Of a stretch of 30,073 nt of DNA, positions 7,301 through 29,876 are shown piece after piece (position 1 is the stretch's first letter; each line of letters begins with the position of its first letter). The notes below the pieces were generated by a model. That model was not told the origin of the DNA and ran no database searches. It saw only the letters and a list, made by a program, of their open reading frames with translations. The position numbers were made by a program, and so were the translations under genes. Source of the DNA: a virus; the IMG/VR virus record IMGVR_UViG_3300030090_005861, positions 1-30,073 of that record; one strand, given 5' to 3'.

Positions 7301-8520
7301 TGGAGTTAGCATTAATAAGAACCCTCATGGATAAAGAGTTCTATGAGAATAACAAAGGTATCAGAACACCTGATAACCTTTTCAGTAAAGACTTGCGTGG
7401 TATAAAAAGAACTCTTGACTACGCTATGGAGACATACGAGAGGAGCATAACACCAGCAGAACTAGAAGGCTTATTCTTCACACATAACGTCTTGACTACA
7501 GCTAACAAAGATTCTTACAGAGAGTTGTTCAAGAGGATAAACAGAGCAGAACCTATGTCACCTGACATTGCACAGGAAGTTATGGGTAATATGTTTCAGA
7601 AGTTAGTAGGAGAGGAGATAGCTAACTTAGGTGTTAAGTATGTCAACGGTGTAGAGAATACACTGGAGCCTGTGCGTAAGATAATAGAAGACTATCAGGA
7701 TGACTTCATGCCTAACTTGAAGATTGATTGGGGTGACATATCTATTGACACCTTACTAGAGAAGGCTGACATTCAAGCTAAGTGGAAGTTTAACATATCA
7801 TCTCTGCAAAGACGCATAGAAGGTGTGTCAGGTGGGCATTTAGTTTTGGTAGGTGCAAGACCAAATACAGGCAAGACATCCTTTCATGCTTCGATCATAG
7901 CCTCTGAAGATGGGTTTGCTAGACAGGGTGCTAAGTGTATAGTTTTATGTAACGAGGAATCCTATGATCGTGTAGGTGCAAGGTATCTAAGTGCTGCATC
8001 TAACATGTCTATGGATGAAGTTAAAGGTAACTATGCACTAGCTGCAACACGTTACAAACCTGTGCACGATAACATCAAGATCAAGGATAGCACAGGTAAA
8101 GATATGCGCTGGGTTGAGGCTGTAGTTAAAGCATACCAGCCTGACATCTTAGTGCTAGACATGGGTGACAAGTTTGCCAGTAAAGGTAGTGCTGACTCTC
8201 ATGTGTACCTCAAAGACGCAGCGATACACGCACGTAACATAGCGAAGCAGTACGACTGTGCTATCATCTGGATGTCACAACTGTCTGCTGATGCTGAAGG
8301 TAAAGTCTACGTGGATCAATCTATGATGGAGGGTAGCAAGACAGGTAAGGCAGCAGAGTGTGACTTGATGATCTTGATTTCCAAGAACCCACAAGTAGAA
8401 GGCCAGGATGAACAAGATTCACAGAGACACTTGAACATAGCTAAAAACAAACTACGTGGTGGATGGCATGGTGTTGTACACTGTGAGTTAGATGGTGATA
8501 GATCAAGGTACACAGCATGA
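7300..8520 (+). CDS. Replicative DNA helicase, DnaB type
   Basis: A 406-aa hexameric-type (RecA-fold) helicase that should unwind DNA at the phage fork. The C-terminal half shows Walker A GARPNTGKTS with Lys192, Walker B DILVLDMGD with Asp287, the sensor block IIWMSQLSADAEG, and NKLRGGWHG near the end. The N-terminal half is helical and probably binds primase or helps form the ring. The start is ATG 7300, 4 nt after GGAGG; the in-frame ATG at 7282 lies before that site. The stop overlaps polA as ATGA, which couples helicase and polymerase synthesis. Confidence 0.93.
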   Translation: MELALIRTLMDKEFYENNKGIRTPDNLFSKDLRGIKRTLDYAMETYERSITPAELEGLFFTHNVLTTANKDSYRELFKRINRAEPMSPDIAQEVMGNMFQKLVGEEIANLGVKYVNGVENTLEPVRKIIEDYQDDFMPNLKIDWGDISIDTLLEKADIQAKWKFNISSLQRRIEGVSGGHLVLVGARPNTGKTSFHASIIASEDGFARQGAKCIVLCNEESYDRVGARYLSAASNMSMDEVKGNYALAATRYKPVHDNIKIKDSTGKDMRWVEAVVKAYQPDILVLDMGDKFASKGSADSHVYLKDAAIHARNIAKQYDCAIIWMSQLSADAEGKVYVDQSMMEGSKTGKAAECDLMILISKNPQVEGQDEQDSQRHLNIAKNKLRGGWHGVVHCELDGDRSRYTA

Positions 8521-10559
8521 GAAGAGTTCTTGATGTAGAAAACTCTATCACTTTACGTGATGGCAAGATACACAACGATCCATTTGAACCTAGCAATACG
8601 CTTACACAAGTGGGTGTGCTGTGTCTTGACACACAACAGAAGTCTCTGCTTTGCTTTGACCATCAAGAAAGAAACGACACGAAAGACAACAAGTGCAGAC
8701 TACAAAGATGGCTTGACTCTACAACTCTACTGATAGGACACAACTTACAGTACGATCTGTCTTGGTTGTGGTCTAGTGGGTTTACTTACGATGGTGATAT
8801 CTACGACACTATGCTTGCTGAGTATTTACTGCAACGTGGACAGAAACAACCACTAAGTTTAGAGCAGTGCGCCCAGCGCAGACAGTTAGAATATCAAAAA
8901 GATGATACGCTGAAGTCATACTACAAGAAAGGATACAACACAAATGAAATTCCCTTGGGTGAACTTAGCCATTATCTTTCTTGCGATCTTCATAGTACTG
9001 GCGAGTTGTACAAAGCAATCGAAGAAGACTACCAAGATCCTGCCTCAACTTCCTTACATAACGTTAGAGACATTACCTTCCGCACCTGCAAGTCCCTCGC
9101 AAAAATGTACATGCGTGGATTCAGGGTGGATACTACCGCCCTCGAACATGTCCGTGATGAGTTCCAACGAGAGCGTAACGAAATCGAATACAGGTTGCAA
9201 AAAAAGGTGCGAAAACTAATGGGTGACACACCCATAAATCTAAACTCTCCAGAACAACTGTCGCAAGTAATCTTTGGTAGAAGAGTACACAACAAAAAAG
9301 AGTGGGCTAACTTGTTTGAACACGTAAGTACACCAGAGGAGTTTAAAGATACAGTAGAAAAGAACAGTGACATGATACTCAAGACATACGCTGTCATATG
9401 TTCTAGCTGCACAGGTAAGGGGAAAGTGTTTAAAGTAAGGAAAGATGGCACAAAGTATGCCAAACCTACTAAATGTAAAGAGTGTGACGGTAAAGGATAC
9501 CATCTACGTGAACTATCACACGCTGCAGGATTACAGTTTAGAGCACCAAACAAGTCTTGGATTAGTGCTAATGGTTTTAGCACAGGTAAAGATAGACTAG
9601 ATATGATCAACCACGTTGCAAAGAAAGGTGAAATGAAAGATGCAGAAGAATTTATCACAGGGGTTAAAAGGCTGTCTGCTGTTAGTAGTTATCTCAGTAG
9701 TTTTGTCGATGGTATTTCCACCTACACTAAGCAAGATGGATTCCTCCATGTCGGTCTTACCCAGCATATCACCAGTACAGGTAGATTTTCTGGACGAAAG
9801 CCCAACATGCAAAACATGCCAAGAGGAGGAACCTTTCCTGTAAAGCGTGTGTTTATCTCTCGTTGGACTGACGGTCACATTTTAGAGGCTGACTTTGCCC
9901 AGCTTGAGTTTCGTACAGCAGCATTCCTTGCACAAGACGAGACAGCTATGCAAGAAATAGACACAGGGTTTGACGTGCACAGTTACACAGCAAAGATCAT
10001 CACTGATGCAGGTCAGCCTACAACTAGGCAAGAAGCCAAGGCTCACACGTTTGCACCTCTCTTTGGGGCTACAGGGTACGGCAGAAGCAATGCAGAGGCA
10101 GCATACTACAAGCACTTCGTAGAGAAGTACAAAGGCATAGCTAAGTGGCACACAGATCTAGGCAACGAGGCGTTACGCTTTCAAAAGATAACTAACGTAA
10201 GTGGTAGGCAGTACGCTTTTCCTGACGTTACACGTAGAGCAAACGGTAGTGTGTCTCACTTCACTATGATAAAGAACTATCCTGTTCAAGGTTTCGCTAC
10301 AGGTGATGTAGTACCGCTTGTCTTAATAGAACTAGATGCTAGACTAGAGAAGCTACAGTCAGGTATAGTTAACAGCGTACACGATTCTGTGGTAGTAGAT
10401 GTACACCCAAACGAAAAAGACTACGTGATTGCAATGATAGATACATTAAACGATGATCTTAATAGTATAGTGGAGGAAGCGTATGGAATAAAAATAAACG
10501 TTCCGTTGTTATTAGAAGCTAAAATAGGTAAGAATTGGCTTGACATTAAGGACGTTTAG
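8517..10559 (+). CDS. polA: Family A DNA polymerase with DnaJ-like zinc-finger insertion
   Basis: A 680-aa replicative polymerase. The 3'-5' proofreading domain comes first: VLDVENS (Exo I), GHNLQYDLSWL (Exo II) and HYLSCDLHST (Exo III). Polymerase motifs follow: A with Asp459 in EADFAQLEFR, B with Lys508 and Phe512 in RQEAKAHTFAPLFGATGYG, and C with Asp623 in VNSVHDSVVVD. Between exonuclease and polymerase parts, residues 295-330 hold two CxxCxGxG units (Cys295/298 and Cys320/323), the zinc-finger signature of DnaJ central domains. I recall this fusion from the SAR116 phage HMO-2011. The residue matching E. coli Phe762 is Phe, that matching Tyr766 is Phe, and the acidic residue after the motif C Asp (E. 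coli Glu883) is Ser624. Confidence 0.96.
   Translation: MRRVLDVENSITLRDGKIHNDPFEPSNTLTQVGVLCLDTQQKSLLCFDHQERNDTKDNKCRLQRWLDSTTLLIGHNLQYDLSWLWSSGFTYDGDIYDTMLAEYLLQRGQKQPLSLEQCAQRRQLEYQKDDTLKSYYKKGYNTNEIPLGELSHYLSCDLHSTGELYKAIEEDYQDPASTSLHNVRDITFRTCKSLAKMYMRGFRVDTTALEHVRDEFQRERNEIEYRLQKKVRKLMGDTPINLNSPEQLSQVIFGRRVHNKKEWANLFEHVSTPEEFKDTVEKNSDMILKTYAVICSSCTGKGKVFKVRKDGTKYAKPTKCKECDGKGYHLRELSHAAGLQFRAPNKSWISANGFSTGKDRLDMINHVAKKGEMKDAEEFITGVKRLSAVSSYLSSFVDGISTYTKQDGFLHVGLTQHITSTGRFSGRKPNMQNMPRGGTFPVKRVFISRWTDGHILEADFAQLEFRTAAFLAQDETAMQEIDTGFDVHSYTAKIITDAGQPTTRQEAKAHTFAPLFGATGYGRSNAEAAYYKHFVEKYKGIAKWHTDLGNEALRFQKITNVSGRQYAFPDVTRRANGSVSHFTMIKNYPVQGFATGDVVPLVLIELDARLEKLQSGIVNSVHDSVVVDVHPNEKDYVIAMIDTLNDDLNSIVEEAYGIKINVPLLLEAKIGKNWLDIKDV
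8944..9219 (+). CDS. Candidate embedded lipoprotein gene, +1 frame inside polA
   Basis: A 91-codon frame lies wholly inside polA in another frame. Its product would start MKFPWVNLAIIFLAIFIVLA, followed by Ser-Cys: a positively charged N-terminus, a hydrophobic core and a textbook lipobox L-A-S-C at Cys22, with Thr at +2. The mature part is polar and Pro-rich (LPQLPYITLETLPSAPASP), as in outer-membrane spanins of the Rz1 type, which are often embedded in other genes. AAAGGA precedes the ATG by about 10 nt. Codons of polA in 9030-9190 are unusually C-ending, but so are patches elsewhere, and this frame crosses the conserved Exo III motif. It may be chance. Confidence 0.22.
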   Translation: MKFPWVNLAIIFLAIFIVLASCTKQSKKTTKILPQLPYITLETLPSAPASPSQKCTCVDSGWILPPSNMSVMSSNESVTKSNTGCKKRCEN

Positions 10560-16401: not shown

Positions 16402-16414
16402 TGGCCCCTCTTTT
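16384..16414. terminator. Bidirectional intrinsic terminator between convergent operons
   Basis: The stem AGGGGC (16391-16396) pairs with GCCCCT (16404-16409) around a 7-nt loop. TTTT follows at 16411-16414 for the plus strand, and AAAAAA at 16383-16388 supplies a U-tract for minus-strand transcripts. It sits exactly where the last plus gene (stop 16401) meets the end of the minus operon (stop 16413), so one hairpin can end both. Confidence 0.85.
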
Positions 16415-19400
16415 AATTACCTTTCCCTATGTACACTAAATGATCTATGTATGAGTTATACATGTTTAACTCTCTATAGTTAAAATCTTTTACTTCTCCT
16501 GATACACCATTGCGATTCATGTACCTCATCGCCTCTGCCTGTTGTTCTTTTGTTCCTTTAACAGAAGCCTTATACCGTAACCTGTCCATATAGTTTGGGC
16601 TTTCATGGTAGTCTAACATTTCTCGTGTTTCTTTTTTAGCTTCGTTTAATACGTTTCTTACTCTATCTCTACGATACTGTAATAAGCTACGTCCCTCAGG
16701 CAGCCCTTCCCCTTTTGTAAATCTTTTGTCTGTTAGAAGCCTAGACATTTTAGGCTCTAGCAGAGGTGCTAATGCCTCATTAAATATCCTATCGTACATG
16801 GGCATTTTGCTACGTTGATCTGCTTTCCATGTCTGTAGTTCTGCCATAGAGTATACTTTTTCTGCAGGTGTTCTACCTTGTTTTACATTAATGCCTAATA
16901 TTCTAGCCAGTGGATTTGCGTCATAGATATCTCCTTGACGTGTTGCTATTCGTAATTTTTCTCCAGTGATATTATCTGTTTCTCCAATCAACACCTCTAA
17001 TATATTATCAAAGTACTTAGTTGCACTTTGAGTAAGCACCGCACCACCCTTTGCTTGCCTTACATCTTTAGCTATATCCGTATCAGTTAAGAAGCCGACC
17101 ATCCTATTAGCTGCATCAAGAGGTCTAGTAAAACCAGCAAGTACGTTACCTGTTGATTTAGCTAAAGCATTAATGGCATTACCTCGCTTTGAATCATTTT
17201 CAGAAAAGACATCAAGAATATTAAACAAATCGTTAGCAAACTGTGCATCCCTTGCTACTTGTCCAATAGCAAGCTGATTTAGCATCTCTTCTTTAAGTTC
17301 TCTAGGTATAGGTTCGTTCTTAATTAAAAAACTTCCGTACCTACCTGCAACTAAAAAAGCAGACAAAGGAAAAACATTACGCACATCTACTATATTACCA
17401 CCGCTTGTTTTTATTAAATTAGGAGCTAAACCTTGTTCCTCCTGTTGCTGTGAATAGTTTATGGCTAAACCAAGTGCTGTTGTACCAACCATAGCACGAG
17501 ACATAGCCTCTACTGATTGGACATCTCCTTTCACAGCTATACGTGCTGCTGCAGGTAATAAGGATAAAAAACTCCACTGATAAGCGGTTGCTACAACGTT
17601 GTTCATAAATCTACCAAATGGTAAAATAAGACCAATACCAGGTGTGTTAGATGCTTTCTCTACAACTTTAGCTACAACACCCAGCAACTGATCTTTATCA
17701 AAACTATCTGTTGTGTAGTCTTTGGAGAACACAGATCTAAGCGTAGTGTCCACAGCAGCGCCAATGATATCATCATCAAGCTCTTCTATTTTATTTTCTT
17801 TTAGCACTTTCTCTAGAGTCAGATCTTTCTTTTTTAAACGTAAATATTTATCTAACTCAGTCATAAACATCTGCGATTTTGTAAATGTATCTTGAATACG
17901 AACACCAGTAATATTCATAGAGGCATTCGTTAAATTCTCAAAAAGTTTAAAAACATTACCATCAGGGTCCATGTTGTATCTTTTAGCACTACGCTCAACA
18001 CCACCTGCTACAGTTTCAAACAATAAACCTTGTACATCAGACTTACCTTTTTCATCCTTTATTTGTTGCATAAGTTTCATGTAGGCATCGTGTGTTGTAA
18101 ATGGATCAACAAAATTTTTCATCTTCTGTGATTGTATTTGTGTATATACTTTAGCTTGTCTTACAAGTTCATTTGCTCCTTTAAAATCTCCAATACCTAC
18201 TTTAGCTGCTGCACCTGTCAACAATAAACCACCTGAAAATATATCAGCTACCACTTGACCACTATAGAACTGACCAAAGCCCATGACGTTTGCTGCTGTT
18301 GTAGCAGGAGAAGAAACAAGTAAACGTTTCCACACGTTCTGCGTATAACTCAAAGCCTTTGGTGTCTTTTTAGTTATATCAACATAGCCTCCTGCCTCTT
18401 CAAGAGTATCTCTAACGTCTTTTGATTGTACCATGTTTGCAAGTATTTCATTACCTGCTACAACACCATGATCTATTGTGCGTCTAACTTGAGACATAAC
18501 TGCAAGTTTCTTACCAGCTTTAGATACATCTGCTGCAATAATCTCACCTATCTCAATACCAAGATCTGCAGTCTCTCCTAAAGTTATTCCTACACGCTCT
18601 CTAAATAAGTTTGATATCTCCTGTAGATCATCCTCTGGCATAAACCTTACAAGGTTTGTCATTATGTCAGAAACTTTTGTATCTCTACGTAGCTTCATAC
18701 CACGTTCCCTAAAGATAGCAGCAACACCTCCTTTGTTTCCATCGCCTAGCATAATTTGTTTTAACAATACTTCAGGTATAGCCACTGCTTCTTGAGCTAT
18801 ATCATCTGCTGTATAACCCTCAGTCAGATACTCTCCTGATTTTACTTTTTCGTCCCATCTTTTAATACCATCTTTAATAGCTTGACTAGCACGTTCCTGA
18901 TCTTTAACATCAGGCAATAAGGGTTTACCTATAAGTTCTCTTTTAAGCTTACGCTTTTGTGCTTTAAGTTGATTTATCTTTCTGGTCTTTACTATTTTTT
19001 GACCTTTAGTTTTAGCTGGCATTGCCTCTGCTGCTTCTATATCTTTTTCTATAGATTTAATCTTAGTTCTTTCTACTAGCTCAGATGCTTTGTCTGCTCT
19101 TCCTGCAATCTCAACTTCTTTTATAGCGTCAGCTAAACCAGACACACCATCGAACTTACCAAAGGCATAATGTAGACCACCTCCTACACCACCTAAAGCT
19201 AGAGAGAAACCTGTTTGTAGTTGACTGTATTCATCTTGTGCACCTACATCTAAGTAAATGCTTTGTATTGCGTTATCTTGAATACCTGCAAGTAAAGAAT
19301 CAATAGCTGTAGTTTGTAACACAGCCCTTTTTGCTTTTTTCTTAAACTCTTCTTTAGCTACACCTGATGCTGCCCTTTGTGCTGCAGACAAACGAGCCTG

Positions 19401-20123
19401 TGCTCGTGCAGCTTTAGCGGCTCTACGAGATGCAGCAGCTACCTCTTTACTTGAAGCGCTTTTAGCTATCATGCGCTGGGCCATAAGCATACCTGCTTCT
19501 ATACCTGCGTTCTCTGCAGCCTCTCTTGTAGCACCACTTGTAGCCGCCCTTTTTGCAGCCTCACTGGTAGCTTTACGTATGGCAATCTTACCACTCTGAG
19601 AAAGACCCAGCGCTGCTGCCTTACCATAACCACCAGTTAGCACACCTATGTAGTTTGTAGGATCACTAGCTGCAGCAAACACGTAATCTTTTACACCGTC
19701 TACTGCACCGTAGAAACCATCATTAACAAAAACATTTCCTAAGCTGTCATACAAGTTGTAAGCTTTAGCAGCCATAGCTTTTGTATTATCATCTGCTTTA
19801 CTTATAAAACGCACTTCGCCTGCAGTTTTTAAAGTGTTAGTATTAAAGTACCTCATGTGATCTACAAAATCTTCTACTAATGTTTCTTGATCCATGTCTA
19901 CATAATCAGCGCCTTTGTTTGCTGACATGTAGTCACGAATTGTATTTATATTTTCATATCTATAAAGATCTTTTTTCTTTAGCTTTTGTCCCTCAGGAAT
20001 AGGACTTTCAAATATTTCTTCTTCATTATCTAGCACAATAGTATTCTTAGGGCGCAACTGCTCCCTCTCTGACTTATCAAAGTTTAAACCGTACTCCTTA
20101 AAAAAATTATACTCTTGAGTCAT
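16413..20123 (-). CDS. Very large putative internal virion (ejection) protein, 1236 aa
   Basis: A 1236-aa protein starting MTQEYNFFKEYGLNFDKSER. Residues about 135-260 include a hydrophobic patch (DYVFAAASDPTNYIGVLTGG) and an Ala/Arg-rich helical region; about 355-395 is strongly basic. Later come amphipathic or hydrophobic stretches (DIFSGGLLLTGAAAKVGIGD; GIGLILPFGRFMNNVVATAY, then SLLPAAARIAVKG and ALGLAINYSQQQ). Large helical proteins with a few membrane-active segments next to a transglycosylase are the pattern of podovirus ejection proteins such as T7 gp16. No enzymatic motif is seen. It is last in the virion operon, overlapping the transglycosylase gene as ATGA and ending against the terminator. 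Confidence 0.75.
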   Translation of the reverse strand: MTQEYNFFKEYGLNFDKSEREQLRPKNTIVLDNEEEIFESPIPEGQKLKKKDLYRYENINTIRDYMSANKGADYVDMDQETLVEDFVDHMRYFNTNTLKTAGEVRFISKADDNTKAMAAKAYNLYDSLGNVFVNDGFYGAVDGVKDYVFAAASDPTNYIGVLTGGYGKAAALGLSQSGKIAIRKATSEAAKRAATSGATREAAENAGIEAGMLMAQRMIAKSASSKEVAAASRRAAKAARAQARLSAAQRAASGVAKEEFKKKAKRAVLQTTAIDSLLAGIQDNAIQSIYLDVGAQDEYSQLQTGFSLALGGVGGGLHYAFGKFDGVSGLADAIKEVEIAGRADKASELVERTKIKSIEKDIEAAEAMPAKTKGQKIVKTRKINQLKAQKRKLKRELIGKPLLPDVKDQERASQAIKDGIKRWDEKVKSGEYLTEGYTADDIAQEAVAIPEVLLKQIMLGDGNKGGVAAIFRERGMKLRRDTKVSDIMTNLVRFMPEDDLQEISNLFRERVGITLGETADLGIEIGEIIAADVSKAGKKLAVMSQVRRTIDHGVVAGNEILANMVQSKDVRDTLEEAGGYVDITKKTPKALSYTQNVWKRLLVSSPATTAANVMGFGQFYSGQVVADIFSGGLLLTGAAAKVGIGDFKGANELVRQAKVYTQIQSQKMKNFVDPFTTHDAYMKLMQQIKDEKGKSDVQGLLFETVAGGVERSAKRYNMDPDGNVFKLFENLTNASMNITGVRIQDTFTKSQMFMTELDKYLRLKKKDLTLEKVLKENKIEELDDDIIGAAVDTTLRSVFSKDYTTDSFDKDQLLGVVAKVVEKASNTPGIGLILPFGRFMNNVVATAYQWSFLSLLPAAARIAVKGDVQSVEAMSRAMVGTTALGLAINYSQQQEEQGLAPNLIKTSGGNIVDVRNVFPLSAFLVAGRYGSFLIKNEPIPRELKEEMLNQLAIGQVARDAQFANDLFNILDVFSENDSKRGNAINALAKSTGNVLAGFTRPLDAANRMVGFLTDTDIAKDVRQAKGGAVLTQSATKYFDNILEVLIGETDNITGEKLRIATRQGDIYDANPLARILGINVKQGRTPAEKVYSMAELQTWKADQRSKMPMYDRIFNEALAPLLEPKMSRLLTDKRFTKGEGLPEGRSLLQYRRDRVRNVLNEAKKETREMLDYHESPNYMDRLRYKASVKGTKEQQAEAMRYMNRNGVSGEVKDFNYRELNMYNSYIDHLVYIGKGN

Positions 20124-20698
20124 TTAAGTGCGTCCTTAATAGCATTAGAATATTTAGTCCCTCTAGTTCCAAATGCGTCACTGCCCACCTTACCACTCTT
20201 CAACCAACTACTTGCACCTGACCAGCCTTGATTGTGGGCATATCCTAGTGCAGAGAGCTTATCTTTTAATGAAAGACTTCTATATTTTTTTGATTTAGCC
20301 ATAAGATAATCATGGTTTTTAACTGTAAAAGCAGCAAAAGCTTCCTCTTGTTTTACTTTATCGTTTCTAAAAGCCTCTCTTGATTTAGAATCATGCTTAA
20401 GAGAGTAGCCTAATAGAGTAGCTGCATCTGTCTTAGCCGCCCTACCCATCTGATATCTTCCATCATAGTGGTTGTTGTAGCCTCCTTTAACAGAGTAATC
20501 ACCTGCTGATTCTATCTTAGCTATTTCTTCTCTATATGTATTCCACATAGACTGATCTGCACCAATATTATCAGACACAAGTGTGTAAGCTACACTAGAT
20601 ACATTTTGAGGTTTTTGTACACTGCTATCTGGAACAGCAGCATATTTTGCATAATTGCCCATAGTTTCTTTTCTAGCGTATTGTGAATAGTTACCCAT
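20120..20698 (-). CDS. Lysozyme-like transglycosylase, likely virion-associated
   Basis: A 192-aa protein from ATG 20698. It opens with a near-repeat (GNYSQYARKET and GNYAKYAAV), then a lysozyme-fold domain: YREEIAKIESAGDYSVKGGY with likely catalytic Glu63, NNHYDGRYQMGR, and the later AHNQGWSGASSWL. It should cut peptidoglycan glycan strands. A longer reading to 20794 adds an apparent signal peptide, but those bases encode the C-terminus of the preceding gene in another frame and lie 104 nt inside it, so 20698 (8-nt overlap) is preferred. Its position before the 1236-aa gene suggests local wall opening during DNA entry rather than final lysis. Confidence 0.82.
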   Translation of the reverse strand: MGNYSQYARKETMGNYAKYAAVPDSSVQKPQNVSSVAYTLVSDNIGADQSMWNTYREEIAKIESAGDYSVKGGYNNHYDGRYQMGRAAKTDAATLLGYSLKHDSKSREAFRNDKVKQEEAFAAFTVKNHDYLMAKSKKYRSLSLKDKLSALGYAHNQGWSGASSWLKSGKVGSDAFGTRGTKYSNAIKDALK

Positions 20699-22280
20699 TT
20701 CTTTCTCTACCTTTTGGAAATGGGCCGCTTCCATCATCATCATAGTAAAGACTACCAATAGGAAGAGCATCAAACGCTGCATCTTTTTCCTCAACAGTTT
20801 TATAGTTTCTAAGGTCTAGTATACCAGATTCTACAGGTTTGTCAACAATCTCTTGTTGTGCTGTACCTGCTTTAGGAGAACCGTCAGGGTTGTGTGTGTC
20901 TCCAAACAACTCATCCCACTCATCTACGCGCAGCCCTTTTTCTGGTATTGCCATTTCACCACTAAGTATTTTTTGTCTTGCATCATAGTCTAAGGAAACA
21001 CCTGTGATCCTGCTCATAAACGCACTTGGTCTAGGAGGTACGCCTTTTACAACTTTACCATCTTCAATATACTCTACTGTACCAAGCGCACTTGGTGTTG
21101 CATCTTCTCCACCAAGAGGAAAACCTTTTCTAGAAAAGCTGGCTTCGCTTAGTAGTCCTTCTTTATACAACTCTGATAGTGCTTCATCATGTCTGTCTTC
21201 AGGTACTTTTTTATTATCTACTGTTATTTGACTAACAGTCTTTTTATCAGGACCAATTGTAATCTCTACAACTCGTTGATCATTATCTACAATTTTTATA
21301 GGTGTACCAACAGAGGTGTTTTCCATATCTAACATTTTTTCTACAAAAAATTCTTTAAGATCTTCTTCACTTGCGTACTCTTCAAGTTTAGCTAGATAAG
21401 CTTTTTCTCCCATAATAGATTTTAAATCAATACCAGGGTCTGTTAAAAATTGATCTCTGTACTGAGATGTATAGGACTCAATTACACCGTTTTGTCTACG
21501 TTCTATAATACGTTTTGTTTCATTTGCTATCAACTTTGCTTCATTAGGATCTCCTTCAAATTGACGTATTATAGAAGACCTAACAGATTGAGGCAAATCT
21601 GCTGCATCTGCCATCTGTTCTAAAAACGCTGGCCCTATTCTTGTTGGATCATAATCTTTTGTTGGCCTAAACGAAAAGTATGTTCCTGGGTCCATGCTTT
21701 CGTAAGCCTCCTGTCTAGCTATCTCGTTAATATCCATAACTGAATAGCCCTCGTAGTATGCATCCTTATCCAGCCTAGCTCTAGTTGCGTCTTTAAGACC
21801 TATACCCAGCGCTGTTTTTAAAAGACCTTGCCTTTTAGCTTGATAACTCCCTATTGAAGGTTCAGCTAAACCTATAGAGTTAGCGTAATGCTCTGCTGGG
21901 TCCATTGATTCTACTGCAAATTCATCAGGCATTTCGATGAGTGCATCTAGTTCACTTTCGCTAAACGTTACGTTGCCACCAGAGCTAGGTCTTTTTTGTG
22001 CTTCTCTTTGAAGCGACTGTGAAAACTCAAACAAAACCTTTGGACCTGCTGCAATGGCTGCATTAATATGCCTATCTTTTGCGCCCATCTTTTTAAGTAA
22101 ATTTATTTCTGTCTTAGCTAAGTTAACTAACGCCCTGCGCTTACCTACTAGAGTTTTATTACGCTCTGCTTCCTCGCGCTTCTGATCTTCATAATCCTCT
22201 GCATCTTGTATACGTTTTTGGATAGCTCTAGCTTGATCATCCATAAACGCTGTAGCAAACGCTTTAAAATTAAACGCCAT
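20691..22280 (-). CDS. Putative internal virion protein, 529 aa
   Basis: A 529-aa soluble-looking protein beginning MAFNFKAFATAFMDDQARAI, with a charged coiled-coil region at about residues 15-50, a helical middle and a Pro/Gly-rich C-terminal third. The C-terminus carries KDAAFDALPIGSLYYDDDG, a short block (FDALP-G--Y-D) that I have seen near the ends of marine phage structural proteins. Position and size resemble T7 gp15, between a short gp14-like gene and the transglycosylase/large protein pair. No catalytic motif is visible. The assignment is by context. Confidence 0.65.
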   Translation of the reverse strand: MAFNFKAFATAFMDDQARAIQKRIQDAEDYEDQKREEAERNKTLVGKRRALVNLAKTEINLLKKMGAKDRHINAAIAAGPKVLFEFSQSLQREAQKRPSSGGNVTFSESELDALIEMPDEFAVESMDPAEHYANSIGLAEPSIGSYQAKRQGLLKTALGIGLKDATRARLDKDAYYEGYSVMDINEIARQEAYESMDPGTYFSFRPTKDYDPTRIGPAFLEQMADAADLPQSVRSSIIRQFEGDPNEAKLIANETKRIIERRQNGVIESYTSQYRDQFLTDPGIDLKSIMGEKAYLAKLEEYASEEDLKEFFVEKMLDMENTSVGTPIKIVDNDQRVVEITIGPDKKTVSQITVDNKKVPEDRHDEALSELYKEGLLSEASFSRKGFPLGGEDATPSALGTVEYIEDGKVVKGVPPRPSAFMSRITGVSLDYDARQKILSGEMAIPEKGLRVDEWDELFGDTHNPDGSPKAGTAQQEIVDKPVESGILDLRNYKTVEEKDAAFDALPIGSLYYDDDGSGPFPKGRERNG

Positions 22281-22282
22281 AA

Positions 22283-22891
22283 TTATTCACCTCTCGCCAT
22301 AAGACCTGCACCTTCAGGTGGCATTGGCTCTTCAGCAGGTTCTGTTACTTGTTGTATCTCTTCAGCTTCAGGTGGCTGTTCTTCTGGTACTTGTTCCTCT
22401 ACTTGCTCTGCATCTTTATCTGCTATAATATAATCAGCCATAGCTTGAAGCATAGACGTACCTTCATCTTGAGTTTTAGCTTCACGCACAGCAGCCTGTA
22501 GTAGCATAGCAATTTTAGCTTCTTCTTTTTCTCTTCTTTCTTTTTTATAATCTTTATTAGATAGTTTATAATTTATATCGTAGCTACGTGCTACTGCAGC
22601 AAAATATTCTGTTAATGCTGGAGCAATAAGAATACCTATGTCTAAGCTGTGCACACCATTCATAACGTTAGAGAGATATAGAGTTTTTACTAAAGGTACA
22701 ATTGCAACACCCGACTCTATGGCTACCATGAAATCATCAATAATCTCTTCATCAGATAATCTCTGCATGTAAAACTTTAACGCTTCCTCAACAGAAGCTA
22801 TTTCAGGAGGTCTTTCCCACTGACGCTCACCTATTTTGTGAGATGTTAAAGATGAGCCTGGAATAGGTTTATTATACTCTAATACTGCCAT
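22283..22891 (-). CDS. Putative virion protein, 202 aa
   Basis: A 202-aa protein beginning MAVLEYNKPIPGSSLTSHKI, with GERQWERPPEIASVEEALKF, then LYLSNVMNGVHSLDIGILIA, a coiled-coil stretch (KDYKKERREKEEAKIAMLLQ), and a C-terminal tail of Glu/Pro/Gln repeats (VEEQVPEEQPPEAEEIQQV). A block of the type W-RPPE...DALE and MNG-HS-D is common in structural regions of marine phages, but its role is unknown to me. The size is near that of T7 gp14 (196 aa), which suggests an internal protein. AGGA precedes the start. Confidence 0.65.
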   Translation of the reverse strand: MAVLEYNKPIPGSSLTSHKIGERQWERPPEIASVEEALKFYMQRLSDEEIIDDFMVAIESGVAIVPLVKTLYLSNVMNGVHSLDIGILIAPALTEYFAAVARSYDINYKLSNKDYKKERREKEEAKIAMLLQAAVREAKTQDEGTSMLQAMADYIIADKDAEQVEEQVPEEQPPEAEEIQQVTEPAEEPMPPEGAGLMARGE

Positions 22892-22900
22892 TTCATTTTC

Positions 22901-23344
22901 CTACTTAGTAAACCCTGCACCAAAGTACAGCCCTACAATAGCTGATACTATATGTGTATCTAGTGGTGTTATTACAAAGCCTTGTGCCATCTTCCACTGT
23001 ATTGCTTCCTCTGGTCCAAACAACCAGTTAAATAAACCACCTGTTGCTTCTGTGTAACCTACGTAAACACTGACATCAGGATACCACACTGCGACTAGCT
23101 TTGGCAAGACAATAATGCTAAACACTGCAGATAAAGCTATAAGTCTACGTGTCCAAGCGAAGTGACTGTCGTTTTTACCTGCCTCTCTTGCTGTGTTGAC
23201 TTGCTCTGCTCTAAACTGTGCAGTCTGTAGCATCATCTTGTTCTGCTCTTGGCGGTTCTTCATGCTCTGACCCCAGATGGACATCACTCCACCTAGTATC
23301 GTAGAAAAGAGCATTGTTATAAGTTCTAGTGGTAAGCCTAACAT
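22901..23344 (-). CDS. Holin-like membrane protein (147 aa)
   Basis: A 147-aa protein with three likely membrane helices: LELITMLFSTILGGVMSIWG at the N-terminus, RLIALSAVFSIIVLPKLVAV in the middle and THIVSAIVGLYFGAGF at the C-terminus. A charged helix (MKNRQEQNKMMLQTAQFRAE) lies between the first two. The layout resembles three-helix holins, including the GTA holin type, which form the lesion that releases the endolysin. It directly follows the peptidoglycan hydrolase gene with one-base overlap. A structural membrane role is the alternative. Confidence 0.65.
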   Translation of the reverse strand: MLGLPLELITMLFSTILGGVMSIWGQSMKNRQEQNKMMLQTAQFRAEQVNTAREAGKNDSHFAWTRRLIALSAVFSIIVLPKLVAVWYPDVSVYVGYTEATGGLFNWLFGPEEAIQWKMAQGFVITPLDTHIVSAIVGLYFGAGFTK

Positions 23345-25023
23345 TATAAAATTGGTTTCCCTACATCTTCAGGTACGATCCTACGTATGCTAATTATATA
23401 GTTTTCTTTAAATGCTGACAAACTTACAGAGTCTTTTTGATTGCCACCAAGTATGCTTACAGTTCCTGTTTTATCATCTATACTTTCTATAAAGCCAACA
23501 TGATAGCCTGGAGCTATTCTATATTTTTCTGTATCTTTTCTGTATTTACTATCTAAATCTTCTCTTGATAAAGTGTTAGTAATTACCTCTCCTGTAAGCT
23601 TATCATAAACTATGTCTCTACTGTGTATTACGGCTATGTCTCCACGTTTTGCTGCGTTTATATTTTCTACTGCATCACCGTAGTTTTCATATGCTTTTGC
23701 TCTAAGTCTATCGTACTTGTCATCTGTCTCAAGTCTTTTTACGCCTAGTTCGTTTAGTATATGATCTACAAAAGTAGCACACCAAGCTGTTTTCATAGGA
23801 TTTTTAAACTCACCTATAGCATCCATAAACATTTGTGCTATTGTGTCGTTATTATCTTTTTCGTTTAATAAAGACTCATAACGTGATTTTTTCTTCCTAG
23901 TAGAAACATTTCTGTCTTTTATATAACCAAGTTTAATAACGGCGTCAATAGGATTGGTTATGCCCTCAAGAAGATTAACAACCTCAGACGTAACAGGAAC
24001 TGCATCATTAGGTCTAGATCTAGGACGAACCATAATTCCTGTAGGTATAGACTCTACATCATCAGGTCTAGCTCTAGGGCGTAGCACTATTTCTTTAGCT
24101 TCTATAGAATCCTGTTCATACTGATCTTGTAAATCTTCATCCTCTGTTGTTAAAAAATCTTCTACTTTTTTTACAGTTCCTTTAAGTGGATCAAGTGTTT
24201 TTATGCCTGGTCTTTTTGCAAGACCCTCTGATAAAGGTGCACTAGGTGTTTCTTCTTTAATTGGAGGAAGCTCTTCTTTAGTAATAGGTAATTTTTCTTT
24301 AGTTACTTGTGGATTTTTTTCTATAAATGCTGCAAGTGTTTTTGGACCAAACTTACCATCAACATCTCTTCCTGTAAAACCTGCATCTTTTTGAAACGCT
24401 TTTACAGCAGCTTGGGTCAACGATCCATCAATACCATCTATCTTACCTACATTATATCCTGCAGAATCTAACATAATTTGAGTATCTCTTATGGTTGGTG
24501 TATAACTTTTACCTTTTACAGGTATCACTCCTAAAGCCATAGCTGAAGATGCTACATCTATATCCTTTACACTTTTAGGTCTAGCTCTAGGTTTTAAAGT
24601 TGGTGTACTATCTAGTATCATCTTTATTTCACTAGTAAGCTCATCTACCTCTGTATCTGGTATTAGTTTAGCAACTTTTACTTTTGAACTTGTGCTTGGG
24701 ATACCTTTATTAAGTCTATAAAATTGTGCAGCAGAAGTTTGATATCTTCCCTCCATGTCTCTTGCGTTTATTTTTAACTCATTTAAAGGTATCTCTACAC
24801 CCTCTTCAGGTGTATCTTCATTATCACCAATTAACTTTGTAAACTTAGATGTAGACTCACTAGCGCTGGGTTGAATAGGTTCATCAGGTTCTGGCCTAGC
24901 TTGTGGTCTAAGGCTAGACATTAATCCCTCTGGCCTAGCTCTAGGGCGTGTGACTTGTTGCTGTTCTTCTTCAGCAAAAATGTCAGCTAATATGTCTCTT
25001 ATTACTTTATCAAAGCTAGACAT
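23344..25023 (-). CDS. Multidomain peptidoglycan hydrolase: PG-binding and NlpC/P60-CHAP-type peptidase
   Basis: A 559-aa protein. A peptidoglycan-binding domain lies at about residues 174-236 (TQIMLDSAGYNVGKIDGIDG, then TQAAVKAFQKDAG and GKFGPKTLAAF). The C-terminal domain, about 395-550, is a papain-fold amidase/endopeptidase with Cys415 in TAWCATFVDHIL, His508 in GYHVGFIES and a following ILGGNQKDSVSLS. It should cut peptide links in the wall. Five copies of a short RPRARP-type motif (about residues 24, 38, 148, 318 and 335) separate the parts. At 559 aa it is far longer than a typical endolysin, so a virion-attached hydrolase is possible, though the holin-like gene next door favours lysis. 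Confidence 0.82.
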   Translation of the reverse strand: MSSFDKVIRDILADIFAEEEQQQVTRPRARPEGLMSSLRPQARPEPDEPIQPSASESTSKFTKLIGDNEDTPEEGVEIPLNELKINARDMEGRYQTSAAQFYRLNKGIPSTSSKVKVAKLIPDTEVDELTSEIKMILDSTPTLKPRARPKSVKDIDVASSAMALGVIPVKGKSYTPTIRDTQIMLDSAGYNVGKIDGIDGSLTQAAVKAFQKDAGFTGRDVDGKFGPKTLAAFIEKNPQVTKEKLPITKEELPPIKEETPSAPLSEGLAKRPGIKTLDPLKGTVKKVEDFLTTEDEDLQDQYEQDSIEAKEIVLRPRARPDDVESIPTGIMVRPRSRPNDAVPVTSEVVNLLEGITNPIDAVIKLGYIKDRNVSTRKKKSRYESLLNEKDNNDTIAQMFMDAIGEFKNPMKTAWCATFVDHILNELGVKRLETDDKYDRLRAKAYENYGDAVENINAAKRGDIAVIHSRDIVYDKLTGEVITNTLSREDLDSKYRKDTEKYRIAPGYHVGFIESIDDKTGTVSILGGNQKDSVSLSAFKENYIISIRRIVPEDVGKPIL

Positions 25024-28000
25024 TATCCACCACCTCCTGCTACAACATTAACTGTTTTTGGTGTACCTCTCATTATAAATGCTGATACAACACTAGATAA
25101 AAAACTACCTGCAGCAGAACTGTAAGATGCATCCTCAGAGGCATCTGCTTGTATGTTAGCTTTAGCTAGTTCATGGTCACGGTCCATTTGTTTTTCAGAG
25201 CTAGTCCAGGCAAAATCCATTAAATCTCTTTCTTGTTGCCACAACTCCGCTAAACCTTGCATAGTCATATTGTTAGCCGCCATAACTTCTGCCATGTTAG
25301 CCTCGTTAAGTGCCGCAGTGTTAGCTGTAGCCACAGACTGTCGCCACACAGTATTAGCTTGTGCTATTACCAGTTCGTTCTGTGCATTAAACAAATCACG
25401 CTGGTTGTCTAGTTCAGCTTGAAATTTAGTCATAGAGTTTTCTTCACCTGCGTTAAACTGTTCCATAGCATTTGCTTGTGCTATATTAAACTGATTAACT
25501 TGTGTAGATAAACTATCAAAGAACTGATTGACTTGGTTAATACTCTCAGCGTTAAACTGTAGCTGTGCATTTTCTGCAGCTTGATCAGAGAACACACTCT
25601 GTACTAGGGACTGTGCCTCAAACATAACAGCTTGTTGTTCGTTATCTAAGTTAGCCATGTCCATCTGCAGGAACGCCTGTGCTTGTTGTGCTGCAGCTTG
25701 TTGTCTGTTATTTAAGTTAGCCATATCTACGTCTGTAAGTGCTGCACAGTCAGCCATAAGTTTAGCTTGTTCGTTTGACAAGTTAGCTAAGTCTACAGAG
25801 AGAGCCATCTCAGATTGTCTAAGAGCACGAGTCTGCTGTTCTGTAAAGTTCATGTTAGCTACTTCAGCTATACGCTCTGCTTTTATTACAGCTACTTGTT
25901 GTTTGTTAGTTAGCTCCTGACCTTTCATGGCTGCTTCTATCTGAGCGTTAGCTAGTGCAGTTTGTTGTCTACCTGACATCTCCTCTAAACCAATAGTCAA
26001 CTTATTACTCATGTTGAAGATAGCAGTTTGTTGTTCGTTGTTTAACTCTATCTCTCTTTCAGCTACAGCATTAGCTACATTAAACAAAGCAGTTTGTTGC
26101 TTATTGTCTAACACACGCCCTTCCATAGCTGCACTAGCTACGGCATCTTGTATAAACGCTTGTTGCTTACGTGTAGCGTCACCCATATTAGCTTCAAATG
26201 CTTGTGTGCTTTCTAGCACTGCCATCTGTTGTTCGTTAGTTAGGTCTTGACCCATCATGGCAGCTTTAACTTGTAAGTTAGATAGTGCTGTCTGTTGTGC
26301 ATTAGACAGGTTAGCCATCTCAACTTCTAAGTTTTGCGTTGAGCGTAGTATAGACGTTTGTTGTCTGTTTGTCAAGTTAATATCGTTGACTGCAGCGTAA
26401 CGTGCAGCATTAGCTATAGCTACATTAGAGCTAATACTTAACTCTTGTCCTTGCAAAGATGCCTTAAACTGAGCCATAGCTAAAACAGCCTCTTGCTCGT
26501 TTGACAAGTTTTTAAGCTGTAAGTTAGAGTTGTTCATGGAGTTCTGCAAGTTTGTAGCTTGTCTGTTTGACAAGTTAGCTAACTCAAAGTTCTGTGCTGC
26601 AGCAGCATTAGCTAGAGCTACAGCTTGCTCGTTCCGCACGTTCTCCATGTCCATAGCTTGAAAGGTAGCTGCATCAGATTGTGCTATAGGTATTGCACTT
26701 TCCATAGCCGCCTGTATCATAGCCGCACTAGCCATAGAACTACCACCCATGCCACGAGCGTTCATAGCTGCAGTTACCCTACGTAACGCACCAGCCGCCC
26801 ATGCAGGTGTACCATCGTTAAACTGATCCATTAAGTTTGCTAGTTGACCTTGGACAGTGGATGCAGCACTTACTGTACCTTTTACAGCTTTAGCTTCTAA
26901 TTGTTGTGTAAATGACGCAGATTGTGCTTCTGCAACAGCATCACCATTTAATGCTTCTAAAGTTTTAGCGGCTACAACTACCTCTTCACTGTTGAGTATT
27001 TTATTTACATCAACTATTTCATCCGCACCCACAATAGTTTCTTCTGCAGTTACATCAGGCTCAAACTCAGATTTTTTCTCTGGTGCAGTAGCGTATTCAT
27101 CAAACTGAGCAGCGTCTTTTATTTTGTTTTCTTTTTGCTCTGCTACCTGTGTCGGCGGTAAGTTGTAGTCTACTTCAGGCTCTGCTCTAGGTGTTTCTGT
27201 TTCAAACTTAGCGGCATCAACGTCTTCTACATCACCTTCAAACTCCTGTTCTTCTGATTCAGTGTATTCATCAAATAGTGCGGCTGTAGGTGTTTCACCT
27301 TCTTGAAGGGTACGTTTAACTTCTGGTATCTGACGTATTGTGTCTAGCGTAGCTGGGTCTAAATCTAGCTGTGATAATTCTTCAGGGTCCATAGTTTCAG
27401 CTTTCATCAGAGCGTCTTCTGATGGTGTGCCTGTAGCTGCAGCAAAGTCTTCTAATGCAGTCTTAACTTTCTCTTGTGACATAACTGCTTCGTATGTCTC
27501 TGCTGAATCTTTTTTAGAGTCTTGTTCTATCTGTGCTTGACGTTGCTCTAGTTTAGCGAGATATTCTTCATGTTGATCGTATGCTTCTCTAGAAAACGTA
27601 GTAGCCTTTGCCCTTTCTCCTGCTGCAACTATAGGAGATATAGGAGTGGGTAAAGGATATTTTTCTTGTAGCTCTTCGTCACTAAACTTGTTAAGGTACG
27701 CTAGTGTAGCTTTAACAGCAGGGTCATCAGCTTTACCTGCGTCTTGTGCTTGCTTAACTAAGAGTGTAGCTGCAGTTGCTACTTGTCCCGTGTCACTATC
27801 TATAAGCTGATCGTCTTGTACTTCTAAGCCATATACTGTAGGCTCTTGTAAAATAGAGCTAGGGTTAGTTATAGCTTTACCCAGCGCTTCACTAGTAGAT
27901 GGTATGTCTGTAGTCTCCATCTGTTTTTGTGCTGTAGATACGTCTGCTTGTGTTTGTGTAACTAAAAGTTCAGCATCCTCTACATCTTTTACTAGCTGAT

Positions 28001-29414
28001 TATATACATTTGCTTCTTCCTGAAAACCAGAGTAATCTTCACTTTGTTTAAGCTCTTCTAATTTAGGCACTATTTTACCAAGCTGTTGCTGTATTCTTTC
28101 TGTAGTCTTTTGATTACTTTTTACTTCTGTGCCATCAGCAAAGGTTATAGTAAAATCTTGATATGATCCTGTAATAGTGTAGTCACTTAAATCAGCAGGT
28201 AGCTTACCTTCTCCTGCAAGACTTTTAAATGTTTCTTCTTCTGATCCTCCAGCAAAAGGTAAGCCTGTAGATAAATCTAAATCACTAGTGTCAAAGGTAG
28301 GTTGTTCTTTTCCACTAAGTTCTTTTTGTGCGTCTGAAAGCGTACCCATAGCGTCACTATAGGATTGCTGTGCATCATCTAATTTAGTTTGTGCTTCAGT
28401 TATCTCTGGTGTAGGTGTACCAGGTTGTAGAACTTGTGAACCCTCTGGTGCTTGTGTGGATTGTACAAATGTTTGATATGCAGGATCACCCTCTACTGCA
28501 GTGCTTGCATCTCTTGCAGCTTTTTCTGCTTCTTCTTTAGCTGCTTTAAACTCAGGGTTGTTTTCTATGAAAGCCCTCATCTCTTCTCCTACTTCAGGGG
28601 TCATAGGTCTTCTACCTGAAGGGTGTGTACCTGAATACATTTGAGTGGCATAAAACTCTTTTGTAAGTCTACTACTTATGTCACCTGCTTCTTTAGATTT
28701 AGCTTCTGAAGCAGTAATTAAATCTTGTGTAGCTGTTGATAAATTATCTGGATTAAATGTAGTTTTTGCTTTCTTCATTGCTTCTTGTATTTTAGGGGAT
28801 AGACGCTCTAAAGGATTAACTTGTTGTGGTTCTTCTGTAGGTGGGTCTTGTTCTGTCCCTAAAGCAGAACGCATTATATCTTGGAACGATGCCTTTTCCT
28901 CTGCAGTGCCTTGTCTAGCAGTTGGTGCAAGCTCTTGTAATGTACCTGATCTATCTGATATTGGTCCTGTGTAGTCAGGATTACGTACACCTCCACCTAG
29001 ACCTACTAAAAACTCTTGGTTTGGATCAAAGCCTGTTCTGGCAGTTGGTGTATCAGTTATCCTAGATACGGGTGCATAAGTTGTAAACAAATCCTTGTTA
29101 TTGTCAGCCATTACACCTGCTGCACCTGTTGGACGTCCACCCCTTGATAGCATAGAATCTAAAATTTGTTCATTAAGGCGTTCTCTTTGTTCTGTGTTAG
29201 CTATGTTACCACCAGCTTGCATACCTATGCCAGACAAAGGCCCACCCTCTACACGTTGCCTAGCTATATCAGCATACCTGCCTAGCTGAGAGGCAGCACG
29301 AGGACTAGACGCAAGAAACGCATCCATGTCATCCTTTTGCGCTGGGCCTGTGTAGCCAAACTCTTTAAGGAGTTGATGCGTTTGATCGTTACTAAAACCT
29401 TTAAATCTTTTCAT
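25023..29414 (-). CDS. Giant helical-repeat virion protein, 1463 aa
   Basis: A 1463-aa protein. Residues 1-200 are Gly/Pro-rich and weakly structured (MKRFKGFSNDQTHQLLKEFG). Residues 200-850 are acidic, Glu/Pro/Thr-rich and partly coiled-coil. Residues 921-1272 are sixteen consecutive 22-residue repeats, followed by six phenylalanines spaced exactly 11 residues (1287 to 1342). The end has a hydrophobic segment (GSFLSSVVSAFIMRGTP) and a Gly tail. The repeats predict a very long, regular helix rich in Ala, Gln, Asn and Met. No enzyme motif is seen. Its place among virion genes suggests a structural, tail or ejected protein. It follows the 153-aa gene with no gap and overlaps the hydrolase gene by one base. 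Confidence 0.75.
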   Translation of the reverse strand: MKRFKGFSNDQTHQLLKEFGYTGPAQKDDMDAFLASSPRAASQLGRYADIARQRVEGGPLSGIGMQAGGNIANTEQRERLNEQILDSMLSRGGRPTGAAGVMADNNKDLFTTYAPVSRITDTPTARTGFDPNQEFLVGLGGGVRNPDYTGPISDRSGTLQELAPTARQGTAEEKASFQDIMRSALGTEQDPPTEEPQQVNPLERLSPKIQEAMKKAKTTFNPDNLSTATQDLITASEAKSKEAGDISSRLTKEFYATQMYSGTHPSGRRPMTPEVGEEMRAFIENNPEFKAAKEEAEKAARDASTAVEGDPAYQTFVQSTQAPEGSQVLQPGTPTPEITEAQTKLDDAQQSYSDAMGTLSDAQKELSGKEQPTFDTSDLDLSTGLPFAGGSEEETFKSLAGEGKLPADLSDYTITGSYQDFTITFADGTEVKSNQKTTERIQQQLGKIVPKLEELKQSEDYSGFQEEANVYNQLVKDVEDAELLVTQTQADVSTAQKQMETTDIPSTSEALGKAITNPSSILQEPTVYGLEVQDDQLIDSDTGQVATAATLLVKQAQDAGKADDPAVKATLAYLNKFSDEELQEKYPLPTPISPIVAAGERAKATTFSREAYDQHEEYLAKLEQRQAQIEQDSKKDSAETYEAVMSQEKVKTALEDFAAATGTPSEDALMKAETMDPEELSQLDLDPATLDTIRQIPEVKRTLQEGETPTAALFDEYTESEEQEFEGDVEDVDAAKFETETPRAEPEVDYNLPPTQVAEQKENKIKDAAQFDEYATAPEKKSEFEPDVTAEETIVGADEIVDVNKILNSEEVVVAAKTLEALNGDAVAEAQSASFTQQLEAKAVKGTVSAASTVQGQLANLMDQFNDGTPAWAAGALRRVTAAMNARGMGGSSMASAAMIQAAMESAIPIAQSDAATFQAMDMENVRNEQAVALANAAAAQNFELANLSNRQATNLQNSMNNSNLQLKNLSNEQEAVLAMAQFKASLQGQELSISSNVAIANAARYAAVNDINLTNRQQTSILRSTQNLEVEMANLSNAQQTALSNLQVKAAMMGQDLTNEQQMAVLESTQAFEANMGDATRKQQAFIQDAVASAAMEGRVLDNKQQTALFNVANAVAEREIELNNEQQTAIFNMSNKLTIGLEEMSGRQQTALANAQIEAAMKGQELTNKQQVAVIKAERIAEVANMNFTEQQTRALRQSEMALSVDLANLSNEQAKLMADCAALTDVDMANLNNRQQAAAQQAQAFLQMDMANLDNEQQAVMFEAQSLVQSVFSDQAAENAQLQFNAESINQVNQFFDSLSTQVNQFNIAQANAMEQFNAGEENSMTKFQAELDNQRDLFNAQNELVIAQANTVWRQSVATANTAALNEANMAEVMAANNMTMQGLAELWQQERDLMDFAWTSSEKQMDRDHELAKANIQADASEDASYSSAAGSFLSSVVSAFIMRGTPKTVNVVAGGGG
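25599..26654 (-). repeat. Sixteen tandem 66-bp units encoding 22-residue repeats
   Basis: From residue 921 to 1272 of the 1463-aa protein, sixteen 22-residue units follow one another without a single insertion or deletion. The best conserved positions are 3-14, for example MANLSNAQQTAL, MANLNNRQQAAA and MANLDNEQQAVM: hydrophobic 3, Asn5, Leu6, Asn8, Gln10, Gln11, Ala13 and Leu/Val/Ile14. At DNA level the units are diverged, so this is an old duplication kept by selection on the protein. The phase of the unit boundary is my choice. Confidence 0.9.
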
Positions 29415-29876
29415 CTATCTAGTTCCTAACCATACAAAGCCGAAGATAGCGCCAAGGCCCACAATGAATACAGTAATCCCTGTTGTCCACTCAAGGATTG
29501 CTTGTTTAATTTCCATTTGTCTGTGTTCGTGTTCACGTTTTTGTTTCCTCAAGTCAGCCTCAATCGCCAATATTTCCTGCCACTTACTAGGGCCATACAT
29601 GACGGATATGTACTCTTTTAGCTCCTGTCTCATGGAAGCGGCCTTCTGCTTTGCAGCAAAGATTTCCATAGCTTGAGCTTGTACACCACCACCTAGTGTT
29701 TGATACCATGCTGGTTTCTGGTTTTGCTTTTCAGCAAAGTCAAGGTCAGCTACAGCACCTGCCCACTTAGACAGTTGACCACCCATGTCTTGTAAGTCTT
29801 TCCCGACTGCAATCCCCTTCTTAAGCATCTGAAATGCTGCAGAAGCGCCAGCCAAGGCGGTTACTGGGTCAATCAT
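29415..29876 (-). CDS. Tail-anchored phage structural-type protein (153 aa)
   Basis: A 153-aa protein starting MIDPVTALAGASAAFQMLKK, with GKDLQDMGGQLSKWAGAVAD, a long charged helix (QAMEIFAAKQKAASMRQELK; LRKQKREHEHRQMEIKQAIL) and one C-terminal membrane helix (TTGITVFIVGLGAIFGFVWL). Proteins of this plan, with the same MIDP-TALAGASAAF opening and a YGP-W-E block before the helix, occur in many marine cyanophages and pelagiphages in my memory and are found among virion genes; the precise role is unknown. Its start overlaps the stop of the preceding gene (ATGA). Confidence 0.75.
   Translation of the reverse strand: MIDPVTALAGASAAFQMLKKGIAVGKDLQDMGGQLSKWAGAVADLDFAEKQNQKPAWYQTLGGGVQAQAMEIFAAKQKAASMRQELKEYISVMYGPSKWQEILAIEADLRKQKREHEHRQMEIKQAILEWTTGITVFIVGLGAIFGFVWLGTR

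Follow-up and report, generated by a model that had tools for sequence, protein, structure and literature searches.

In this stretch of viral DNA, one gene encodes a protein of 1463 residues whose C-terminal half probably contains a single continuous hendecad (11/3) helix of ~480 residues, as judged from its periodicity and from the way its relatives vary in length. The helix lies between two conserved tryptophans, and the distance between them changes across the family almost exclusively in steps of 11 residues, over a 3.7-fold range. This amounts to a natural experiment in which register has been strictly selected and total length has not; the combination is unusual and makes the structure directly testable. 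The protein previously had neither a family name nor a function, and we regard it as a strong candidate part of the DNA delivery machinery of HMO-2011-type phages.

The window (the whole stretch analyzed here, a 30,073-base virus record, IMGVR_UViG_3300030090_005861) is a 30-kb fragment of a marine podovirus of the HMO-2011 type. The assignment follows from its polymerase, reductase and structural-gene matches: it encodes a B12-dependent ribonucleotide reductase and a family A DNA polymerase that carries a DnaJ-type insertion, and its structural genes match those of HMO-2011, Roseobacter CRP and related phages. The polymerase (8517-10559, + strand) carries a partial DnaJ zinc-binding segment between its exonuclease and polymerase domains, a trait described for HMO-2011-type phages. 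These phages are reported to rank with the most abundant ocean virus groups (PMC9038755). The repeat protein has homologs in 26 phage records; a first scan of IMG/VR yielded 29 loci, and the IMG/VR contigs with a homolog number more than 150 in all. At default thresholds the protein had no match in Pfam, PHROGs or NCBIfam, the scan of family members against PHROGs gave scattered sub-threshold matches, and searches of PDB sequences with the protein and five profiles returned nothing credible. When Foldseek was run against a viral library, it retrieved just family members or matches of unrelated length; against the PDB nothing was significant, and the similarity to tape measure proteins was weak and not significant.

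The gene and the parts of its product, from N- to C-terminus, are as follows.

25023..29414, - strand: repeat protein gene, 1463 aa, defined by its open reading frame and homologs
29217..29414, - strand: small conserved N-terminal module, residues 1-66 (FKGFxNxQTHQLL...GYxGPAQ...), boundary placed by eye
26865..29216, - strand: variable region, residues 67-850, probably largely disordered, judging from length variation and Pro content
26655..26864, - strand: conserved hairpin signature, residues 851-920, with the first anchor Trp872 (PAWAAGALR...NARGMGGSSMASAAM...AIPIAQ), from alignments
25599..26654, - strand: sixteen 22-residue repeats of two hendecads each, residues 921-1272, from the translation and relatives
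25347..25598, - strand: Phe ladder, one Phe per 11 residues, residues 1273-1356, from the translation, helical wheel and permutation
25155..25346, - strand: second anchor Trp1357 and conserved C-terminal helical segment (LWQQERD...), residues 1357-1420, from homolog comparison
25071..25115, - strand: hydrophobic Ala/Gly/Ser tail AAGSFLSSVVSAFIM, residues 1434-1448, a possible membrane-inserting segment, from hydropathy

The module at residues 1-66 provides the same start in most close relatives and is recognizable in the HMO-2011 class. The stretch between it and the helix is far less constant: what precedes the helix ranges from about 560 to 1016 residues among members with a 485-residue helix, and no recognizable domain was found in the N-terminal half of ten relatives. 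Proline makes up 5.6% of residues 67-850 of the window protein vs none of its helix. In several clades the N-terminus is basic, with a mean net charge of +8 to +12 over the first 40 residues (276, 463 and 573 classes), which would suit contact with packaged DNA. Members of the 276-, 408-, 463- and 573-residue classes (L051, L054, L055, L057, L059, L060, L065, L068, L070 and L071) have a start rich in Lys/Arg, after which comes a GG(R/K)V-type motif; the start of the window protein, by contrast, is acidic or neutral. At the other end, the 15-residue hydropathy maximum of the C-terminal tail is 1.73 in the window protein and exceeds 1.0 in 59% of the 169 homologs.

The sequence-only reading had described sixteen 22-residue repeats followed by a Phe every 11 residues, and translation, shuffles and permutations bear this out. 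Residues 921-1272 are sixteen gapless 22-mers with the rough consensus (M/V)DLxNLSNxQQxALxNAxxxAx, and their lag-22 autocorrelation is 0.28, vs a maximum of 0.16 over 500 shuffles (lags 5-59). The ladder Phe lie at residues 1287, 1298, 1309, 1320, 1331 and 1342; six Phe spaced by 11 occurred in none of 200,000 permutations (eight Phe, residues 1273-1346). The span first given for the two elements, 25446-26654, stops at residue 1323, so that Phe1331 (25424-25422) and Phe1342 (25391-25389) have to be added to it. A one-residue shift had also been placed before the ladder, and there is none: the Phe occupy 22-mer positions 15 and 4 (hendecad position 4) in an unbroken frame. This 11-residue frame runs uninterrupted from the 22-mers via the ladder to Trp1357, and a conserved Asn at hendecad position 5 continues throughout. 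It is the large hydrophobic residue that changes place by one, from position 3 in the repeats to position 4 in the ladder. The 22-residue spacing is also present in close relatives, and since repeat k is ~70% or more identical to repeat k of these relatives and ~26% identical to other repeats, the units are old and individually conserved.

Evidence for the helix comes from how its length varies. We took this length as the distance between the flanking tryptophans, Trp872 in PAWAAG and Trp1357 in AQANTVWRQ, located with strict motifs in 169 homologs. For the window and every close relative this gives 485 (44 x 11 + 1), and the distance equals 11n+1 in 165/169 homologs, with observed values of 155, 199, 210, 221, 254, 265, 276, 309, 353 (including L154, by the strict motifs), 408, 463, 485 and 573. 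Three further values, 187 (phiM6 and RHph_N3_19), 197 (CRP-3) and 354 (L185), depart from the rule and bring the total to 16; ctYwJ313 has lost the second Trp, and its length of 375 is likewise 11n+1. After redundancy was removed, 12 of 14 length classes (155-573 residues) fitted 11n+1, for which the nominal binomial p of ~2e-11 is indicative, as the classes share ancestry and are not fully independent. Among moduli 5 to 15, none other than 11 holds more than five classes. Quantization holds separately for the ladder and for the segment preceding it, and odd multiples of 11 occur, so the quantum is 11 and not 22: the W1-to-junction segment has 15 and 27 hendecads plus 6 besides even numbers, and CRP-9 and CRP-207 have 11 residues fewer than the 265 class. 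Insertions of non-integer length in relatives had been named as the observation that would count against the helix, and all but four of the homologs differ by whole hendecads alone.

Length is constant within clades while the N-terminal half varies. Over the full 155-573 residues it bears no relation to genome size (53-69 kb in isolates) or to host strain, and two phages of the same host strain, FZCC0040, have helices of 197 (CRP-3) and 254 (CRP-207). The idea that genome size or host sets the length of the helix was accordingly rejected.

Composition and periodicity agree with this picture. Proline is absent from the Trp-Trp stretch in all 169 proteins (0/47,935 residues) and in the non-redundant set (0/9,632), vs 6.4% in the N-terminal regions. 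In the window repeats the hydrophobicity power is 8.1 at 98.18 degrees per residue vs 0.5 at the heptad angle (102.9), the 99th percentile of shuffles being 4.2, and across the family the peak falls at 98.0-98.5 degrees per residue; in the ladder by itself, which is short, hendecad periodicity is not significant (p 0.22). Both the lag-22 autocorrelation and the signal at the hendecad angle thus confirm the 11/22-residue periodicity that the sequence-only reading had expected. It is the 11n+1 lengths, the lack of Pro and the 98-degree periodicity together that support a continuous hendecad helix, and the earlier proposal of a helix exceeding 400 residues is supported by them. Projection of 37 non-redundant homologs onto an 11/3 wheel gave two hydrophobic seams, one formed by positions 6 and 3, which flank Gln at 10, the other by positions 4 and 1, which flank Asn at 8. 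The strip separating the seams (positions 7 and 11) consists of Gln, Ser, Thr or Asn and carries little charge; the most charged positions, 9 and 2, lie on the opposite side. The net charge of the helix is negative.

Structure prediction was less clear. A single-chain AlphaFold2 model from a 16-sequence alignment (mean pLDDT 53.7) splits the 22-mers into helices of ~16 residues, separated by short loops close to xxNL(S/T)N, whereas a 73-sequence alignment of the HMO-2011 class (mean pLDDT 61.3) makes the last repeat and the ladder into one 123-residue helix, with pLDDT up to ~82 in the ladder and uncertain breaks before that helix. These monomer models are of low confidence and settle neither helix continuity nor oligomeric state. 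Because they also disagree with each other, the case for continuity within the 22-mers rests on the evolutionary evidence.

The context of the gene points toward a role in DNA delivery. Its neighbors, in order along the - strand, are listed here.

29415..29876, - strand: upstream gene, 153 aa, PHROG match to phrog_32327 (no assigned function)
23344..25023, - strand: downstream gene, probable peptidoglycan hydrolase, 559 aa, with PG_binding_1 and a TIGR02594-like region (TIGR02594 match below its cut-off)
22901..23344, - strand: 147-aa protein with hydrophobic segments, judged by eye a possible holin or membrane protein; phrog_38283 (no assigned function)
22283..22891, - strand: 202-aa protein, by synteny the most conserved cassette neighbor
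20691..22280, - strand: 529-aa cassette protein, gp15-like in size, no sequence match to T7, P22 or P-SSP7
20120..20794, - strand: 224-aa open reading frame, endolysin-type PHROG match (phrog_5867, E 8.8e-46)
16413..20123, - strand: 1236-aa cassette protein, gp16-like in size, no family match

In every locus holding both (148/148), the 202-aa gene shares the strand of the repeat gene and lies downstream of it; the 202-aa gene was found in 16/16 isolates tested and is missing in 2/137 loci with enough sequence. Its product, which belongs to no known family, begins with a conserved PIPGxSLT and often ends in GLMxRR. The 1236-aa gene is likewise downstream on the same strand (87/87 loci), and the 559-aa hydrolase gene adjoins the repeat gene in 18/19 loci having it. 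The 147-aa hydrophobic protein occurs in just 27 loci, which excludes it as the cassette's general membrane component. The 224-aa frame was seen in five loci alone; it is flanked by the 529- and 1236-aa genes and shares ~100 bases with the 529-aa one.

Downstream of the repeat gene the sizes thus run 202, 529 and 1236 aa, and this synteny is kept in relatives. In many podophages, size and synteny are what identifies the equivalents of gp14-gp15-gp16 (PMC8954989), and the three proteins fall in the size ranges taken for a T7-type cassette (about 200, 400-1000 and 600-1340 aa). The resemblance to T7 extends to an operon ending the late genes, with proteins of ~200, 530 and 1236 aa here, and to a peptidoglycan hydrolase function (PMC8954989). 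The cassettes differ in that an extra large repeat protein precedes the three, the hydrolase is a separate gene and there is no sequence similarity: hhalign profile comparison with ejection, needle and portal proteins of T7, P22 and P-SSP7 gave probabilities below 4% and detected no similarity to T7 gp14/gp15/gp16 or P22 gp7/gp20/gp16. A likeness of the hairpin to P22 gp7 and T7 gp14, noticed by eye, was kept as just a lead when profile comparison found nothing. The gp72/gp73/gp71 ejectosome of the N4-like phage DEV is comparable in being a small cassette that forms a helical tube and is recognized by position and not by sequence (PMC10925440); in contrast to our protein, no hendecad array is described for it, and a search of all PDB chains with the repeat protein gave no match. 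It is fairly likely that the repeat gene belongs to an ejection cassette.

A structural precedent is offered by the pilot protein H of phiX174, a decameric DNA-translocating tube in which an amide strip of hendecads lines the path of the DNA (PMC7354561). Both proteins have Gln-rich hendecads with a charged outer strip, hydrophobic seams and an uncharged amide strip between the seams. The three hendecads of H show the same order of strips as the repeat protein, a resemblance of pattern and not homology. The differences are also plain, since H has 3 hendecads followed by heptads in a 17-nm tube and the repeat protein family up to 52 hendecads, and phiX174 is an ssDNA microvirus whereas the repeat protein comes from a tailed phage.

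We therefore propose a working model, in which the continuity of the helix in three dimensions, its oligomerization, location in the virion, ejection and contact with DNA are all inferred. The repeat protein would be a virion protein, carried as the first product of the ejection cassette, with a C-terminal half made of a helical hairpin, a very long, near-unbroken hendecad helix and a hydrophobic tail. Side by side, several copies might associate through their seams (hendecad positions 3/6 and 1/4) to build a helical bundle or barrel, with the uncharged Gln/Ser/Thr strip (positions 7 and 11) facing the lumen and the charged strip (9 and 2) outside, like the phiX174 H tube. On infection it would be expelled along with the 202-, 529- and 1236-aa proteins and the peptidoglycan hydrolase, and together these may help to build a DNA conduit across the envelope. 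Each hendecad would act as an interchangeable axial unit that holds the seams in register, so that evolution would gain or lose whole hendecads. Cassette synteny, the gp14-gp15-gp16-like size order, the neighboring hydrolase, the hydrophobic tail and the phiX174 H-like faces all support this reading, and the earlier suggestion of an ejected, channel-lining protein is plausible. We put the chances of the combined statement, an ejected conduit or core protein of HMO-2011-type podoviruses with the oligomer left as bundle or barrel, at about even; a barrel lining the DNA path is the best single mechanism, held more tentatively. Were it right in its boldest form, this unnamed ejected family would be the longest known hendecad barrel, a Gln-lined DNA conduit of 14 to 52 interchangeable units that evolve freely while register is kept, a picture we consider doubtful as a whole. 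A survey of the literature found no virion proteomics placing the repeat protein in a particle.

The main difficulty for a conduit is size. At ~0.15 nm per residue, 485 residues would span ~73 nm, which far exceeds the 17 nm of the phiX174 tube and probably also the width of the periplasm, and a 3.7-fold range of lengths without a link to host strain or genome size is odd for a fixed gap. The searches detected no sequence similarity to the ejection proteins of T7, P22 or P-SSP7, nor to a solved structure, any helix packed in a bundle or solenoid would also be expected to have two seams, and the hydrophobic tail is absent or weak in some isolates (HTVC115P and CRP-13). The ~73-nm length and the differences within one host are why a tail needle or fiber outside the virion remains the main rival, in which a narrow parallel coiled coil, dimeric or trimeric, would serve as spacer or envelope probe. 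A straight 73-nm rod is too long for a ~55-nm head (our own estimate of head size), large variation by whole repeats suits a spacer, and the repeat gene adjoins tail-fiber genes in relatives and precedes the ejection genes, as the needle gene 26 does in P22. Yet the conserved end of the protein is the C-terminal one while the N-terminal region varies and is basic at its start in several clades, no receptor-binding domain is recognized, most members have the hydrophobic tail, and two seams with an uncharged strip are a better match for an assembly of more than three helices than for a dimer or trimer. Overall we judge a needle or fiber unlikely. Profile comparison gave no sequence similarity between the repeat protein and the P22 gp26 needle, a trimeric coiled coil with an N-terminal tail plug and a C-terminal tip.

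The shallow AlphaFold2 model raises another arrangement, an internal head or portal-core protein folded as a zigzag of 16-residue helices, one per 22-mer, joined by short turns and ending in the long ladder helix. That model shows the zigzag for the 22-mers at pLDDT 70-77, every such helix would have two hydrophobic faces, and 212/220 repeats have Ser, Thr, Asn or Asp at position 7, a helix N-cap preference, while position 3 is often Gly. Against this, the quantum is 11 and not 22, as the 15 and 27 hendecads plus 6 and the 11-residue deficit of CRP-9 and CRP-207 show, no Pro occupies any putative turn in 47,935 residues, and regular breaks are no longer supported with the deeper alignment, which leaves the zigzag improbable. 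An amphipathic helix on a membrane surface, which the sequence-only reading had likened to apolipoprotein and synuclein repeats, would account for the 11/22-residue periodicity and the hydrophobic tail. Apolipoprotein 22-mers, however, have a single lipid-facing side with Pro punctuation, whereas the repeat protein has two seams instead of one broad face, no Pro and a net negative charge; such a helix is very improbable. Least credible is a protein that measures the length of head, tail or envelope, as a tape measure does; the sequence-only reading had also suggested a length ruler. An exact quantized length, constant in clades while the N-terminal half varies, and the weak, non-significant Foldseek similarity to tape measure proteins are in its favor, but these are short-tailed phages, the lengths of 187-353 in isolates are unrelated to genome size, and helices of 197 and 254 occur on one host strain.

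HMO-2011 gp25 and the 'hypothetical proteins' of Roseobacter CRP phages are true homologs: they share the hairpin, the hendecads, the Phe ladder and both Trp anchors, and differ in having 24 or 23 hendecads between the anchors vs 44 in the window. In CRP-2 (L038:5490-7397) and CRP-9 (L046:3487-5430) the N-terminal half of the protein has been replaced or extended, and in CRP-2 the GYTGP-type module is now internal. The ctYwJ313 homolog (L043:8681-11272) is annotated as 'huntingtin', certainly a misannotation, and a tail-region gene of CHOED and Slicky01 annotated as 'dimodular nonribosomal peptide synthetase' is probably another.
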